In this document: positions 29,837 through 34,061 of the stretch, in pieces
Numbering within the stretch: the first letter of the stretch is position 1
How the letters are laid out: each line of letters starts with the position of its first letter
Source of the DNA: a virus
DNA length: 34,061 nucleotides
Reading direction: 5' to 3' (one strand)
IMG/VR virus record: IMGVR_UViG_3300045051_000028
Coordinates: 1 to 34,061 of that record
The notes under the pieces: generated by a model
What the model was told of the DNA's origin: nothing
What the model saw: only the letters and a program-made list of their open reading frames with translations
Databases searched by the model: none
Position numbers and translations under genes: made by a program

Positions 29837-29958
29837 GGTGGTGGACTATAACAGAAAATCACAGCGCCTATAAAATTATTTTTTCGAGGGAATATAAAAT
29901 TTTGTTTTTATGGTGTATGATTCGTTTCACCAACAACCACCCACGAAAGGTAAACACG
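29837..29958. promoter_or_regulatory. Divergent control region with two TATAAAATT repeats
   Basis: This 122-base AT-rich gap separates the two arms. TATAAAATT occurs at 29869-29877 and 29893-29901, 24 bp apart. For the rightward arm TATGAT at 29916-29921 is a fair -10 box, and AAAGG before 29959 is the ribosome site. For the leftward arm TATAGT on the minus strand (about 29845-29850) is a fair -10 box. Each repeat would sit over the -35 area of one promoter, as operators for the Cro-like protein might. Promoter strength is uncertain because -35 boxes are poor. Confidence 0.6.
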
Positions 29959-30144
29959 ATGCAAGACAACTTTTACATAAACGCGGTGGACGGCAATGCC
30001 GCCATCGTCAGCCAAAACGAGGAGCACATCTCGCTTGGCCTGCACATCCGAGGCGGAAGCTGCCGCATAGACCTGACACCAGCGCAGGCCCAGGAACTGA
30101 TCAACGCAATCACCAAAACTTTGAACCAGGAGACAACAGCATGA
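29959..30144 (+). CDS. Small hypothetical protein, first gene of the rightward arm, 61 aa
   Basis: The 61-residue protein is polar with beta-like segments ('AAIVSQNEEHISLGLHI', 'GGSCRIDLTP') and a C-terminal helix ('AQAQELINAITKTL'). GAAAGGTAAACACG precedes the ATG. Its stop overlaps the erf ATG (ATGA). As the first gene behind the control region it would be made earliest. I do not recognise a family. Confidence 0.65.
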   Translation: MQDNFYINAVDGNAAIVSQNEEHISLGLHIRGGSCRIDLTPAQAQELINAITKTLNQETTA

Positions 30145-30719
30145 AAGAGATCGCCGCCGCATTGGTCAAGGCCCAGAAAGCCTTTGGCCCAGCCCTCAAG
30201 TCATCCAGCAACCCACACTTCAAAAGCCGCTACGCCGACCTGGCAGCGTGCGTCGAGGCGGTGATGGATTCCCTCAACGACAACGGCATTGCCCTGGTTC
30301 AGCAGACCCACGAATGCGAAGCTGGCGTAATGGTCGAGACGGTCTTTGTCCACGAGTCTGGGGAAATCTTCTCGGCAGGCAAGCTGCACGTGCCAGCGGT
30401 CAAGCACGACGCCCAGGGTTACGGAAGCGCCCTGACCTACGCACGCCGCTACAGCCTGATGGCTGCTTGCGGTATTGCCCCAGAGGACGACGATGGCAAC
30501 GCCGCCAGCAAGCGCACACCAGCGCCTGTGGCCGGTTACGGTGAGTTTGAGGCAGCCACCCTGCCAGCCATGCGTGAAGCCGCCCTGCAAGGCAGCGAAG
30601 CCCTAGCCGCAGCGTTCCAGGCTTTGCCCAAGTCGGCACACAAGGCCGCGTTCTGGCAAGCCCAAGGGCCAGCACTTAAGAAGGCCGCCAAGACCGCAGA
30701 CGAGCAGGTGGCAGCATGA
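30141..30719 (+). CDS. erf: Erf-family single-strand annealing protein
   Basis: The 192-residue protein has the ERF signature: an N-terminal 'AAALVKAQKAFGPALKSS...KSRYADLAACVEAV' pattern, then 'GIALVQQTHE', and the hallmark 'GSALTYARRYSLMAACGI' (about 93-110), followed by an acidic stretch (EDDDGN). P22 Erf anneals complementary single strands and circularises incoming DNA. With the YqaJ exonuclease and SSB downstream it makes a complete annealing-type recombination set. The start overlaps the preceding stop. Confidence 0.9.
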   Translation: MKEIAAALVKAQKAFGPALKSSSNPHFKSRYADLAACVEAVMDSLNDNGIALVQQTHECEAGVMVETVFVHESGEIFSAGKLHVPAVKHDAQGYGSALTYARRYSLMAACGIAPEDDDGNAASKRTPAPVAGYGEFEAATLPAMREAALQGSEALAAAFQALPKSAHKAAFWQAQGPALKKAAKTADEQVAA

Positions 30720-30979
30720 GCAATCACACACCGGGGCCGTGGACGCACGAAGGCCAAGGCGACATTACGGGAATTGAAGATAACGGTTTTGGGCGCGGCC
30801 CGGTCGATGTTTGCAGCGTCTACCTGCGAACGGTCGAGGGACGGCATGAAGCCAACGCCCGCCTGATCGCCGCTGCGCCTGATCTGCTGGAGGCGTGCAA
30901 AGCAGCTCTAAGCGATGACCAGCCGTACATAGAGAAATGCAAAGCCGCCATCTTCAAAGCAACAGGGGAGCAAGCATGA
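30716..30979 (+). CDS. Conserved small phage protein, 87 aa
   Basis: The start 'MSNHTPGPW' and the middle 'EANARLIAAAPDLLEACKAAL' are the marks of a very common phage and prophage protein family of unknown function. The C-terminal part is a charged helix. It overlaps erf (ATGA) and the exonuclease gene (ATGA). Its frequent place among recombination genes suggests an accessory role in DNA metabolism, unproven. Confidence 0.75.
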   Translation: MSNHTPGPWTHEGQGDITGIEDNGFGRGPVDVCSVYLRTVEGRHEANARLIAAAPDLLEACKAALSDDQPYIEKCKAAIFKATGEQA

Positions 30980-31602
30980 GAGTCATCACTGCAGATCAAG
31001 GCACCGAAGAGTGGAAGCAGGCACGCGTCGGTGTGCCATCCGGCTCTAAGTTCAGCGACATCATGGCCAAGGGAGGCGGGGCAACCCGCGCCACTTACCT
31101 GACCGCATTGGCCTTGGAGCGCATCACCGGGGTGCGCGAAGAGTTCAAGACAACCTTTGCCATGGAGCAGGGAACCGAGCGCGAGCCTTTCGCCCGGTCG
31201 GCATACGAGGCCCACACAGGCCAGTTTGTCACCGAGATCGGGTTTTGCATGCACGACACGCTGCAGGTCGGGGTCAGCCCTGATGGCCTGGTTGGCAAAG
31301 ACGGCATGACCGAATACAAGTGCCCGATGCCAAAGACCCACCTGGAATACTTGCGGCTTGAGCCAGGCAAGTGCCCGACGGCTTACCGATGGCAGGTGCA
31401 GGGCCAGCTCTGGGTGGCCGAGCGTGAGTGGTGCGACTTCGTGTCCTACAACCCAGACTTTCCAGAGAACGCACAGCTCATCATTCGCCGGGTTTTGCGC
31501 GACGAGAAGGCCATCAAGGAACTGGAGATCGAGGTGCTCAAGTTCCTCGGGGACATCGAGCGCGAGGTCGAGTTCATCCAGTCTTACAAGGATGCAGCAT
31601 GA
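30976..31602 (+). CDS. YqaJ-type viral recombinase exonuclease
   Basis: The 208-residue protein fits the YqaJ/lambda-exonuclease-like fold: 'GTEEWKQARVGVPSGSKFS' at the start, 'MEQGTEREPFARSAYE' with an active-site Glu (about 57-72), 'GVSPDGLVG' with the metal Asp (about 97-105), and 'TEYKCP', the E-x-K motif (about 114-119). It would digest one strand of double-stranded DNA to expose single strands for Erf. GGGGAGCAAGC precedes the ATG. Confidence 0.9.
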   Translation: MRVITADQGTEEWKQARVGVPSGSKFSDIMAKGGGATRATYLTALALERITGVREEFKTTFAMEQGTEREPFARSAYEAHTGQFVTEIGFCMHDTLQVGVSPDGLVGKDGMTEYKCPMPKTHLEYLRLEPGKCPTAYRWQVQGQLWVAEREWCDFVSYNPDFPENAQLIIRRVLRDEKAIKELEIEVLKFLGDIEREVEFIQSYKDAA

Positions 31603-31886
31603 AAGGCCGCGACCTTCGAGACGCTGGCATCGCCGCGGTGTCCATTGGCCGAGAGGACTGGATCGCCAAGGCACGCGACATGGCCATCTGGATTGCCAAG
31701 CAATCCGGCAAGGTGACCATCAACGACGTTCGGCAGCTGATCGATCTGCCTGACGATTTTCACCACAACACCTGGGGTGCGGTTTTGAGGGGTGACGCCT
31801 TCGAGCCGATTGGATACTGTCAAGCAACCCACCCATCAGCCCACGCTCGGGTTGTTCGGGTTTACAAACTGAAGGAGCAAGCATGA
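31599..31886 (+). CDS. Small winged-helix-like hypothetical protein, 95 aa
   Basis: The N-terminal half is helical ('DAGIAAVSIGREDWIAKAR'). The rest, 'GKVTINDVRQLIDLPDDF' followed by 'WGAVLRGDAFEPIGYCQ' and a beta hairpin ending in 'RVVRVYKL', reads like a winged helix. Similar phage proteins have no assigned role. It sits between exonuclease and SSB with ATGA overlaps, so DNA metabolism is likely. Confidence 0.65.
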   Translation: MKGRDLRDAGIAAVSIGREDWIAKARDMAIWIAKQSGKVTINDVRQLIDLPDDFHHNTWGAVLRGDAFEPIGYCQATHPSAHARVVRVYKLKEQA

Positions 31887-32305
31887 AAGCACAAGGACTG
31901 GCACGCATCGGCAAAGACGCTGAGGTGCGATTTACACCAGGAGGCACGGCCGTGGCCAATGTCTCGCTGGCGTTCACCTACGGAAAGAAGGGCGAGGACG
32001 GAAAACGCCCAACGCAGTGGGTCGATGCCTCGATCTGGGGCCAACGCGCCGAGCCGATGGCACCTTACCTGCTCAAGGGCAAGCAGATCGTGGCGTACCT
32101 GGAGGACGTGCACCTGCAGACCTACACCAAAGGCGACGGCACGCAGAACACCAAGATGGTGGCACGCTTAGCCGATCTGGAATTTGTCTCTGACAATTCA
32201 GACCACAAACCAACACAAAAGCCGCAAAGTGCGCCACAATCACGTCCAGCGCCAGCACCGCAAGGCTCTGGGTTTGACGACATGGATGACGATATTCCCT
32301 TCTGA
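31883..32305 (+). CDS. ssb: Single-stranded DNA-binding protein
   Basis: The 140-residue protein has an OB-fold with the bacterial SSB layout ('ARIGKDAEVRFTPGGTAVANVSLAFTY', 'WVDASIWGQRAEPMAPYLLKGKQI', quoted in parts). A disordered Gln/Pro/Ser linker (about 105-128) follows, and the acidic tip DMDDDIPF recruits partners. It is shorter than E. coli SSB (178), as phage copies often are. AAGGAGCAAGC precedes the ATG. It coats single strands for Erf, NinB and replication. Confidence 0.93.
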   Translation: MKAQGLARIGKDAEVRFTPGGTAVANVSLAFTYGKKGEDGKRPTQWVDASIWGQRAEPMAPYLLKGKQIVAYLEDVHLQTYTKGDGTQNTKMVARLADLEFVSDNSDHKPTQKPQSAPQSRPAPAPQGSGFDDMDDDIPF

Positions 32306-32316
32306 TGGAGACAAAA

Positions 32317-32823
32317 ATGGAAGAGCAACAACCAAAGCGGCCACCGTTTAAGGTGTCTGGGTCGGCAGCGATCAAGCACCTCAACGTGCGCAAGGAAGGG
32401 CCGGAAGACGAGAAGATTCTAGCTGTGGACATCAAGATGGAAATCAAAGGCATCGACAGAGCGCTGTGCGGGTACTTTGACGACGCCCTGGAGGCTTTCT
32501 TGTGGCGAGGTGATACCAATGCCCTGATCGTCCGCAATCTCTGGCTGACGCCGGTGCAGTACGGCAATCTGGTGTCGTCGGCCACGGCTGAGATCGGCAG
32601 CCAGAAGTTTGTCGGTGCTGAGATCAAGAAGTTCAGCATCGCACCGCGTGACGGTGGAGTGATTGCGCTGACCTGCAGCGTGACCATCTACCCCACCGCG
32701 CAAGAAGTCTCGCAGCTGGCCAAGCTGGTGCAAGACGAAACCCGAGTCCTTCTTGAAGGGCCACCAGACCTTTTCGATTCATCAACCACAACGGAGCAAC
32801 CATGCACGAACAACGTCAACTGA
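32317..32823 (+). CDS. Conserved phage hypothetical protein, 168 aa
   Basis: The protein is mixed beta/alpha; 'AEIGSQKFVGAEIKKFSIAPRDGGVIALTCSV' (about 90-120, quoted in pieces) and 'VSQLAKLVQDETRVLLEGP' are phrases seen in phage proteins that often sit next to SSB or recombination genes, with no known role. I prefer the ATG at 32317, with GGAGACAAAA in front; an ATG at 32305 in a TGATG overlap with ssb would add four residues. The 3' end overlaps the Acb2-like gene by 22 bases. Confidence 0.68.
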   Translation: MEEQQPKRPPFKVSGSAAIKHLNVRKEGPEDEKILAVDIKMEIKGIDRALCGYFDDALEAFLWRGDTNALIVRNLWLTPVQYGNLVSSATAEIGSQKFVGAEIKKFSIAPRDGGVIALTCSVTIYPTAQEVSQLAKLVQDETRVLLEGPPDLFDSSTTTEQPCTNNVN

Positions 32824-33038
32824 CTTTTGGAGAGAAGGCCGTCGGCCTGACATTCAACCCAAGTGGAGACCCAACGGTCGAAGCCATCAAACGCAAGTGC
32901 GCAGACCTGATCGACGAGATTCACGAGCTGCGCACCAATCAGCCAAACGCTGAGATCGCACGGATGGCGAGTTTAGCCATCACGGAAATTCAGGCTGGCC
33001 AGATGTGGGCAGTCAAAGCAGCCACTTGGAAATTTTGA
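32802..33038 (+). CDS. Acb2/Tad1-like protein, candidate cyclic-nucleotide sponge
   Basis: The 78-residue protein reads 'FGEKAVGLTFNPSGDPTVEA' (9-28), a first helix with 'KCADLIDEIHELR' and a second helix with 'ASLAITEIQAGQMWAVKAATW' (quoted in parts). This helix-hairpin layout and the 'ITE-Q--QMWAVKA-TW' ending are what I recall for the Acb2/Tad1 hairpin family, whose members bind cyclic nucleotides and block CBASS or Thoeris defence. The match is from memory, and members with this start are mostly uncharacterised. CGGAGCAACC precedes the ATG. It lies 233 bases before the Tad2 fusion. Confidence 0.55.
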   Translation: MHEQRQLTFGEKAVGLTFNPSGDPTVEAIKRKCADLIDEIHELRTNQPNAEIARMASLAITEIQAGQMWAVKAATWKF

Positions 33039-33047
33039 GGAGCAACC

Positions 33048-33275
33048 ATGAGCACACGCATTTACCTGGTCACCGACGTGGAGACCAACAAGCACCGCCT
33101 GATTCGCGCAGGCAACCAGGCGCAGGCCATCCGGCACGCCGCCCAGACACGCTTTGACATCGAGGTGGCTGGCCAGGACGATCTGGTGAGCCTGCTGACA
33201 AGCGGCATTCCGGTCGAGATGGCTGGCGCTGGTGCCACAGCCGACATGTTTGAAGAAGCGCAGGAGGCGGCATGA
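33048..33275 (+). CDS. Small conserved phage protein between the two anti-defence candidates, 75 aa
   Basis: The start 'RIYLVTDVETNKHRLIRAGNQAQAIRHAAQ' (in parts) gives a beta-strand pair and a helix, then 'VAGQDDLVSLLTSGIPVEMAG', a pattern I recall from many small phage proteins of unknown role. GAGGAGCAACC precedes the ATG, and the stop overlaps the Tad2 fusion ATG (ATGA). Its position between two likely counter-defence genes makes it a candidate for the same kind of role, by context only. Confidence 0.65.
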   Translation: MSTRIYLVTDVETNKHRLIRAGNQAQAIRHAAQTRFDIEVAGQDDLVSLLTSGIPVEMAGAGATADMFEEAQEAA

Positions 33276-33760
33276 AACGCTACATTGGAACCAAACTGAT
33301 CAACGCCAAGCCGATGACACGGCAGGCATACAACGACTTCCGATGCTGGACTTTGCCAGCCGACGAGAACGGTGCAGATGAGGGTTACCTTGTCGAATAC
33401 GTGGATGGCGGCAAAGGCAACACCGACCATTACGCCGGTTACGTGAGCTGGTCGCCTGCCGACGTTTTTGACCGCGCTTACCGTCCATGCGAAGGCATGA
33501 CGTTTGGCCAGGCAATCGAATCACTCAAGACTGGCCAGAAGGTCGCACGCAAAGGATGGAACGGCAAAGGCATGTTCGTGTACTACGTGCCAGCCAATGC
33601 TTACCCTGCACAGACTGGCGTGGCCAAGAGTCACTTCGGATCTGATGCGCTCGTTCCATACAACGCCTACATGGCCATCAAGAACGTGAACAACACCGTG
33701 AGCACTTGGGTGCCAAGTGTCAACGACTGCTTATCCGAAGACTGGGAGATCGTGGAATGA
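33272..33760 (+). CDS. Tad2-like (DUF2829) anti-Thoeris protein with N-terminal phage domain
   Basis: Residues 1-72 ('KRYIGTKLINAKPMTRQAY', 'EGYLVEYVDGG', 'GYVSWSPADVFDRAYRP') form a small domain common in phages. Residues about 75-162 fit DUF2829/Tad2: 'MTFGQAIESLKTGQKVARKGWNGKGMFV' (in parts), 'YNAYMAIKNVNN' and 'TWVPSVNDCLSEDWEIVE'. Characterised Tad2 proteins bind the Thoeris signal, a glycocyclic ADP-ribose, and stop NADase activation. The fusion of both parts in one chain is seen in other phages. ATGA overlaps lie on both ends. Ligand and target remain to be shown here. Confidence 0.8.
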   Translation: MKRYIGTKLINAKPMTRQAYNDFRCWTLPADENGADEGYLVEYVDGGKGNTDHYAGYVSWSPADVFDRAYRPCEGMTFGQAIESLKTGQKVARKGWNGKGMFVYYVPANAYPAQTGVAKSHFGSDALVPYNAYMAIKNVNNTVSTWVPSVNDCLSEDWEIVE

Positions 33761-33909
33761 CCACTGGAAACAAACGCCAATACGTGACCGTTCGCCTGCC
33801 GGACGACATCATGGCCAAGCTCAAGGCCGAGGCCGAGCGCAACACCCGCAGCCTGTCTGCCCAGGTTCTGCATTACCTGAAGCAAGGCTTGGAAAAGGTG
33901 AAAGCATGA
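33757..33909 (+). CDS. Arc-like ribbon-helix-helix regulator, 50 aa
   Basis: The 50-residue protein reads 'RQYVTVRLPDDIMAKLKAEAERN' (in parts), then 'TRSLSAQVLHYLKQGLEKVK': one beta strand and two helices, as in Arc/MetJ-type repressors. P22 Arc (53 residues) is the closest known example in role and size. It would dimerise and bind tandem operator sites, and the 10-bp-spaced repeats at 1305-1330 are one candidate. The ATG overlaps the Tad2 stop (ATGA). It might control anti-defence gene dosage or the downstream promoter. Confidence 0.8.
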   Translation: MTTGNKRQYVTVRLPDDIMAKLKAEAERNTRSLSAQVLHYLKQGLEKVKA

Positions 33910-34034
33910 AGCGAGGCTGGCAGTTTGACGTGGAGTGGTTCACGCACCGCTGGCCGCTGTTTGTGTGCGGAATTCACCAAGGCCAGTTCTGTCTGTGCCT
34001 TTGGGTGGTCGATGTGACCATCTGGAGATACTGA
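33906..34034 (+). CDS. Small aromatic/hydrophobic protein across the genome join, 42 aa
   Basis: The 42-residue protein is rich in Trp, Phe, Cys and Val ('WQFDVEWFTHRWPLFVCG' then 'QFCLCLWVVDVTIW'). The ATG overlaps the Arc-like stop (ATGA) and the stop overlaps the next ATG at 34034. I do not recognise it; it may fold as a small beta sheet rather than a membrane helix. Most of this gene lies in the 127-base end repeat, and its 3' part is also at 2-100. Confidence 0.65.
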   Translation: MKRGWQFDVEWFTHRWPLFVCGIHQGQFCLCLWVVDVTIWRY

Positions 34035-34061
34035 TGGACAAGCGTTATGTCCTGATGGCCG
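33935..34061. repeat. Terminal overlap, right copy (identical to 1-127)
   Basis: Exact copy of positions 1-127. Joining the two copies continues the 42-aa and 50-aa genes without a break, which supports circular closure. See the left copy for interpretation. Confidence 0.95.
34034..34061 (+). CDS. 5' end of the 50-aa gene, continued at 100-252
   Basis: The first nine codons of the small gene at 100-252, cut by the end of the contig. It is a duplicate created by the terminal overlap and should be counted once. Confidence 0.55.

Follow-up and report, generated by a model that had tools for sequence, protein, structure and literature searches.

Gene organization of the locus

The window, that is, the whole stretch of DNA analysed here, is a 34,061-base record of a freshwater-type phage in which bases 1-127 are identical to bases 33935-34061, and it is therefore probably a complete phage genome of approximately 33.9 kb with a circular map. 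Close to its end lies a row of genes on the + strand. An ORF for an ERF single-strand annealing protein (29910-30719; PF04404, 79.3 bits, with the domain from about codon 81) is followed by genes for a YqaJ-like exonuclease (30937-31602; PF09588, 88.2 bits) and a single-strand DNA-binding protein (SSB; 31883-32305; PF00436, 44.8 bits). The YqaJ proteins of this phage group are of two allelic types, approximately 88-97% or 43-47% identical to that of the window. A 172-aa ORF that varies among relatives (32305-32823) overlaps by 22 bases the start of an acb2-type gene for a predicted cyclic-oligonucleotide sponge of 78 aa (32802-33038). The row continues with mid, encoding a 75-aa protein (33048-33275), a tad2-type gene encoding a 162-aa protein (33272-33760), a gene for a 50-aa ribbon-helix-helix (RHH; Arc/CopG-like) protein (33757-33909) and a 42-aa ORF (33906-34034), which is kept beside the RHH gene in relatives and for which Pfam and PHROG profile searches gave no family match.

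An earlier note on this DNA had described the 78-aa, 75-aa and 162-aa ORFs, 233 bases between the first and the last of them, and an Arc-like regulator after the sponge genes. The ORFs and the distance were confirmed, and the 50-aa protein exceeded the Pfam cut-offs for both RHH_5 (PF07878, 28.6 bits against 26) and Arc (PF03869, 23.0 bits against 20.4). The third small gene that the note placed between the two sponge genes does lie there, but it is not free-standing, since it overlaps the Tad2 gene through an ATGA.

GGAG-type ribosome sites precede 32802 and 33048, start and stop codons overlap as ATGA at 33272, 33757 and 33906, and the + strand shows no site resembling a terminator. We therefore read these genes as an operon. 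The starts of the last three genes (those for the 162-aa protein, the RHH protein and the 42-aa ORF) on ATGA overlaps with the preceding stops suggest that their translation is coupled. Downstream of this operon, across the genome join, is a gene for a MazG-like nucleotide pyrophosphohydrolase (249-797; PHROG 671, E 9e-26); a phage MazG-like protein, Atd1, was reported to block TIR-STING (PMC10419184). In relatives the interval from the 42-aa ORF to the MazG-like gene is a third variable place, with ORFs of 88-185 aa, one of which has a sub-threshold match to a WDGH domain.

The 78-aa protein is of the Acb2 type

Residues 21-75 of the 78-aa protein match the Pfam family Acb2_Tad1_hairpin (PF24729) with 45.5 bits (cut-off 27, E 8.6e-12). 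The protein also falls into PHROG 717 (E 1.1e-6), the group used by Jenson et al. to define the homologues of T4 Vs.4 (Acb2) (PMC10097602). Close homologues of the 78-aa, 75-aa and 162-aa proteins are each conserved in many phages. This conservation, together with the E value of the hairpin match and that of the Tad2-like match of the 162-aa protein (1.4e-25), indicates that the matches to sponge families are not due to chance. PADLOC and NCBIfam gave no above-cut-off match for any of the three proteins. The earlier note had assigned the 78-aa protein to an Acb2/Tad1 group; the hairpin family stands, but not the Tad1 type. In Tad1 a four-stranded N-terminal beta-sheet domain lies ahead of the hairpin (PMC12043709). 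The 78-aa protein has only some 20 residues ahead of its hairpin and lacks the beta-sheet domain, so that it is Acb2-type rather than Tad1.

T4 Vs.4 is a measured cGAMP sponge: its hexamer takes up three cGAMP molecules, with a Kd of about 30 nM (PMC10097602). A profile built from 23 homologues of the 78-aa protein matched the solved Vs.4 structure (7uq2) weakly (E 0.046). The cGAMP-contact residue R79 of Vs.4 falls on K72 in the alignment, its interface alanines A66 and A77 fall on A59 and A70, and these positions are conserved in the 23 homologues; A73 of Vs.4 corresponds to G66, a position at which many homologues have alanine. For Y8, H11 and F82 of Vs.4 the automatic alignment, which rests on this weak profile match, gave no counterpart. 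By hand only, the segment FNPS...AIK30 of the 78-aa protein can be seen to resemble YKPH...AIK23 of Vs.4, with K23 corresponding to K30, and we regard this as a lead. The N-terminal motif of the family, LTFGEKAVGxTFNPS, differs from that of Vs.4. The ligand of this predicted sponge is uncertain, because the protein is far from the solved Acb2 structures and because the N-terminal ligand residues and F82 are unaligned.

The 162-aa protein joins a Tad2 domain to an additional N-terminal domain

Residues 76-161 of the 162-aa protein match the whole of the Pfam Tad2-like profile (PF11195, positions 1-73 of 73) with 90 bits (cut-off 25), and comparison with solved Tad2 chains in the PDB gave E values down to 3e-30. 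An AlphaFold2 model of the protein (pLDDT 91.6) was compared with solved structures in VIA, yielding Z scores of 11-12.5 to the SPO1, Hgm and Spt Tad2 proteins and of about 4 to unrelated structures; Z was 12.5 to 8wjd and 9eib, with 87 residues aligned. The profile and the predicted fold thus bear out the proposal that the second half of this protein is Tad2, and we place the predicted sponge domain at residues 74-162 (33491-33760). The closest solved structure is ModTad2 with His-ADPR (9eib), at 56% identity. His-ADPR is the signal of type II Thoeris. Because of the ligand of this closest homologue, His-ADPR is a likely ligand of the 162-aa protein, besides cyclic ADPR isomers.

All of the matched Tad2 structures align to residues 73-162 only, which leaves an extra N-terminal domain (residues 1-73; 33272-33490) outside. 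This domain had no Pfam match, and its best fold resemblance, a weak one (VIA Z about 4), is to Tudor/SH3-like domains, so that a small beta fold of this kind is predicted. In relatives it mostly precedes Tad2 and occasionally other small phage proteins: among 125 distinct carriers, drawn from Tad2-linked queries, 121 are Tad2 fusions and four have other C-termini. With such a sample and these four exceptions, the domain is at most a possible marker of anti-Thoeris proteins. Fusions to C-termini without a Tad2 domain were seen in loci L257, L281, L308 and L314, L186 encodes a longer Tad2 fusion protein, and PHROG 18865 hints at a fusion of the N-terminal domain to RyR. We also considered the domain as a diverged copy of Tad2, after the resemblance between SWSP and WVPS; profile comparison found nothing (probability 0.2%) and the idea was rejected.

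The middle protein most likely belongs to the recombination machinery

Searches of Pfam, PHROG, NCBIfam and PADLOC assigned no family to the 75-aa Mid protein, but its gene has consistent neighbours in distant phages and prophages. It lies between the genes for YqaJ exonuclease and RecT in Limnohabitans phage DC33, in phage ctQRb9, in zth2-2 and in 10 out of 10 further loci (L389-L398), and a Luteibacter genome has the gene order ERF-YqaJ-mid-SSB. It is also retained in relatives that carry neither sponge. Given the YqaJ, RecT and SSB neighbours and this retention, we assign mid to the recombination module, and its predicted product is most likely a component of the recombination machinery. 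The genome matches of mid are in Malikia, Limnohabitans and Luteibacter, a weak hint of hosts in the Burkholderiales or Xanthomonadales.

The earlier note had instead offered Mid as a counter-defence candidate, and its retention without both sponges and its fixed place beside YqaJ and RecT or SSB in distant phages argue against this. They argue equally against the view that the three genes form a purpose-built counter-defence module, with Mid as another sponge or as an inhibitor that acts together with Acb2 and Tad2, a reading that we consider improbable. It would account for the finding that mid adjoins acb2 also in the diverged phages zth2-2, L119 and L103, and it could draw on a resemblance of the predicted Mid fold (pLDDT 75.7) to the anti-CRISPR protein AcrIC9 (Foldseek E 0.07, probability 0.96; VIA Z 4.7). 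That match is no better than the one to RNA polymerase epsilon (Z 4.8), and all of the fold matches, including one to I-TevI, are weak, with Z under 5, and say little. With its recombination-module neighbours, Mid as a third sponge was rejected as the leading view.

A single-gene exchange slot lies between mid and the RHH gene

From 225 relatives of mid the nearest 80 were taken, and 54 of these together with the window share the SSB, mid and RHH genes (n = 55). These core loci are nearest relatives only and are not independent. In 54 of the 55 the borders of the place between mid (upstream) and the RHH gene (downstream) are both ATGA, one at the end of mid and one at the start of the RHH gene. 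The slot is empty in 19 loci and holds Tad2 in 13, an RyR-domain protein in 12, Tad3 in two and uncharacterised genes alone in nine. Known anti-Thoeris families include Tad2 and Tad3. For phage proteins with an RyR domain, work published in 2026 showed that they break down or sequester the signals of Thoeris (PMC13232231), and H58, W61, H83 and D100 of the slot RyR protein have spacing identical to that of H75, W78, H100 and D117 of RyDEP. A known anti-Thoeris family (Tad2, RyR or Tad3) is thus present in 27 of the 36 filled slots, and the slot is an exchange site that holds different known anti-defence genes between conserved genes. The slot may be a general accessory site, since the other nine filled slots hold genes without a known anti-defence role.

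The Tad2 occupants are of two C-terminal alleles (seven and six loci). The DNA of the two is as alike as within one allele until about base 240-280 of the gene and is 64% alike from there on. This switch is near the GWNGKG motif, so that the ligand-binding part is exchanged and the N-terminal domain is kept. Four of the 12 RyR-domain genes are accompanied by a second, RNase H-like gene. The nine slots with uncharacterised genes alone comprise two with an RNase H-like gene and seven with helical proteins without relatives. The latter, of 122-135 aa (L019, L023, L024, L028, L004, L040 and L054), all end in IDL and may form a single family; a search of 50,697 phage records with one of them gave no match. 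A 144-aa RNase H-like nuclease (PHROG 2259) is encoded in the slot of L013, L030, L035, L044, L045, L051 and L064, in four of them with an RyR-domain gene. With the balance somewhat against it, we put forward tentatively that the slot is devoted, as a single-gene cassette site, to inhibitors of TIR/ADP-ribose signalling. The helical and the 144-aa RNase H-like occupants (L013, L051, L064) would then be new anti-Thoeris or anti-CBASS proteins, and swaps after GWNGKG would retune the specificity of Tad2 with the N-terminal domain kept.

The two sponges occupy separate variable places

A second variable place extends from the SSB gene to mid. It contains acb2 in 16 of the 55 loci, and it may also hold the 172-aa ORF, a gene of the HNH type or a block of two genes, or be empty. 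In nine of the 16 core genomes that have Acb2, the slot carries Tad2, Tad3 or RyR as well. Among the 55 core loci the window alone combines Acb2 with Tad2; the combination recurs in L103, which is from a related group. Soil phages (L134, L135, L138, L140, L147-L149 and L153, with the order reversed in L156) have a stand-alone Tad2 as the immediate neighbour of Acb2, and in L135 the stop and start of Tad2 and Acb2 overlap. The pairing of Acb2 with Tad2, as seen in L103 and in the soil phages, therefore arose more than once. Acb2 is present in one of 13 core loci with Tad2 and in 15 of 42 without it (Fisher p 0.08, ignoring kinship), and we do not claim that the two avoid each other. The earlier note had suggested a compact counter-defence module. 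Both sponge families are indeed in one gene row, but each sits at a variable place of its own next to a recombination operon, and relatives mix and match their contents.

Discussion

We consider it highly probable that this segment forms the accessory end of a recombination operon (ERF-YqaJ-SSB-mid), which carries an Acb2-type and a Tad2 sponge against CBASS and Thoeris, with Tad2 in an exchange slot and mid most likely a recombination gene. For the expression, oligomeric state, ligands and anti-defence effect of the predicted sponges we infer the following course. The recombination operon would be expressed early in infection. The Acb2-type hairpin protein would form a hexamer and take up the cyclic di- and trinucleotides of CBASS, and the Tad2 protein would form a tetramer and hold the ADP-ribose signals of Thoeris, among which His-ADPR, cyclic ADPR isomers or both are the likeliest. 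The suicide effectors of CBASS and Thoeris would then stay silent during infection. Homologous recombination within the conserved flanks could let the phage population change its anti-Thoeris tool at the slot, and this activity may be the one encoded next door.

The proteins might instead belong to these families and have another main target, which we regard as a slim chance. Tad2 would then be an AcrIIA7-type anti-CRISPR protein, or the ligand range of Acb2 would have changed, to cyclic trinucleotides only or to the cA3 of type III CRISPR. The solved HgmTad2 has also been deposited as AcrIIA7, an overlap in sequence and fold only; Acb2 homologues vary in ligand range (PMC12043709); and the motif LTFGEKAVGxTFNPS is unlike the Vs.4 N-terminus. 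However, His-ADPR is the ligand of ModTad2, the nearest homologue with a solved structure, and the alternative slot occupants RyR and Tad3 are anti-Thoeris proteins.

Several anti-signal proteins in one phage are known, for example Acb1 and Acb2 in T4 and Tad2 and Acb4 in SPO1 (PMC11722364), and variable anti-defence loci are already known as a kind. For a single-gene slot with exact ATGA borders, common to Tad2, Tad3 and RyR-domain genes, we found no description in the literature examined. Phages can stack predicted CBASS-type and Thoeris-type sponges beside recombination genes, and the presence of the Thoeris-type gene in a clean exchange slot, where relatives carry other anti-Thoeris families, offers a simple rule for finding new counter-defence genes among the uncharacterised occupants. 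Acb2 and similar sponges can themselves set off the Panoptes defence (PMC12657218), and the swapping of sponges may therefore face two-sided selection.

Among known systems, the 162-aa protein is most like Tad2 (ModTad2, SPO1, HgmTad2/AcrIIA7 and SptTad2), with which it shares the predicted fold along the entire Tad2 domain, identity of up to 56%, and conserved GWNGKGM and W-x-x-S-x-x-D motifs. It differs in the 73-residue Tudor/SH3-like domain ahead of the Tad2 domain and in the swapping of the sequence after GWNGKG between two alleles in relatives of the window. The 78-aa protein shares with Acb2 (T4 Vs.4; PaMx33 gp24) the hairpin profile, the PHROG, a MWAxKA-like C-terminal helix, interface alanines and a basic residue equivalent to R79. 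It differs in having only 78 aa, another N-terminal motif and very low overall identity. With Tad1 it has in common the family of the two-helix hairpin domain, but not the N-terminal beta-sheet domain. RyDEP, the phage RyR-domain anti-Thoeris proteins, are represented as the slot alternative in 12 relatives with four active-site residues spaced alike, although the RyR gene is absent from the window itself. Finally, the locus resembles phage anti-defence islands and accessory hotspots, in which a fixed position flanked by conserved genes carries variable genes that are rich in anti-defence families. It differs from them in that the slot takes a single gene, has exact ATGA start-stop borders and holds mostly inhibitors of one signalling class.
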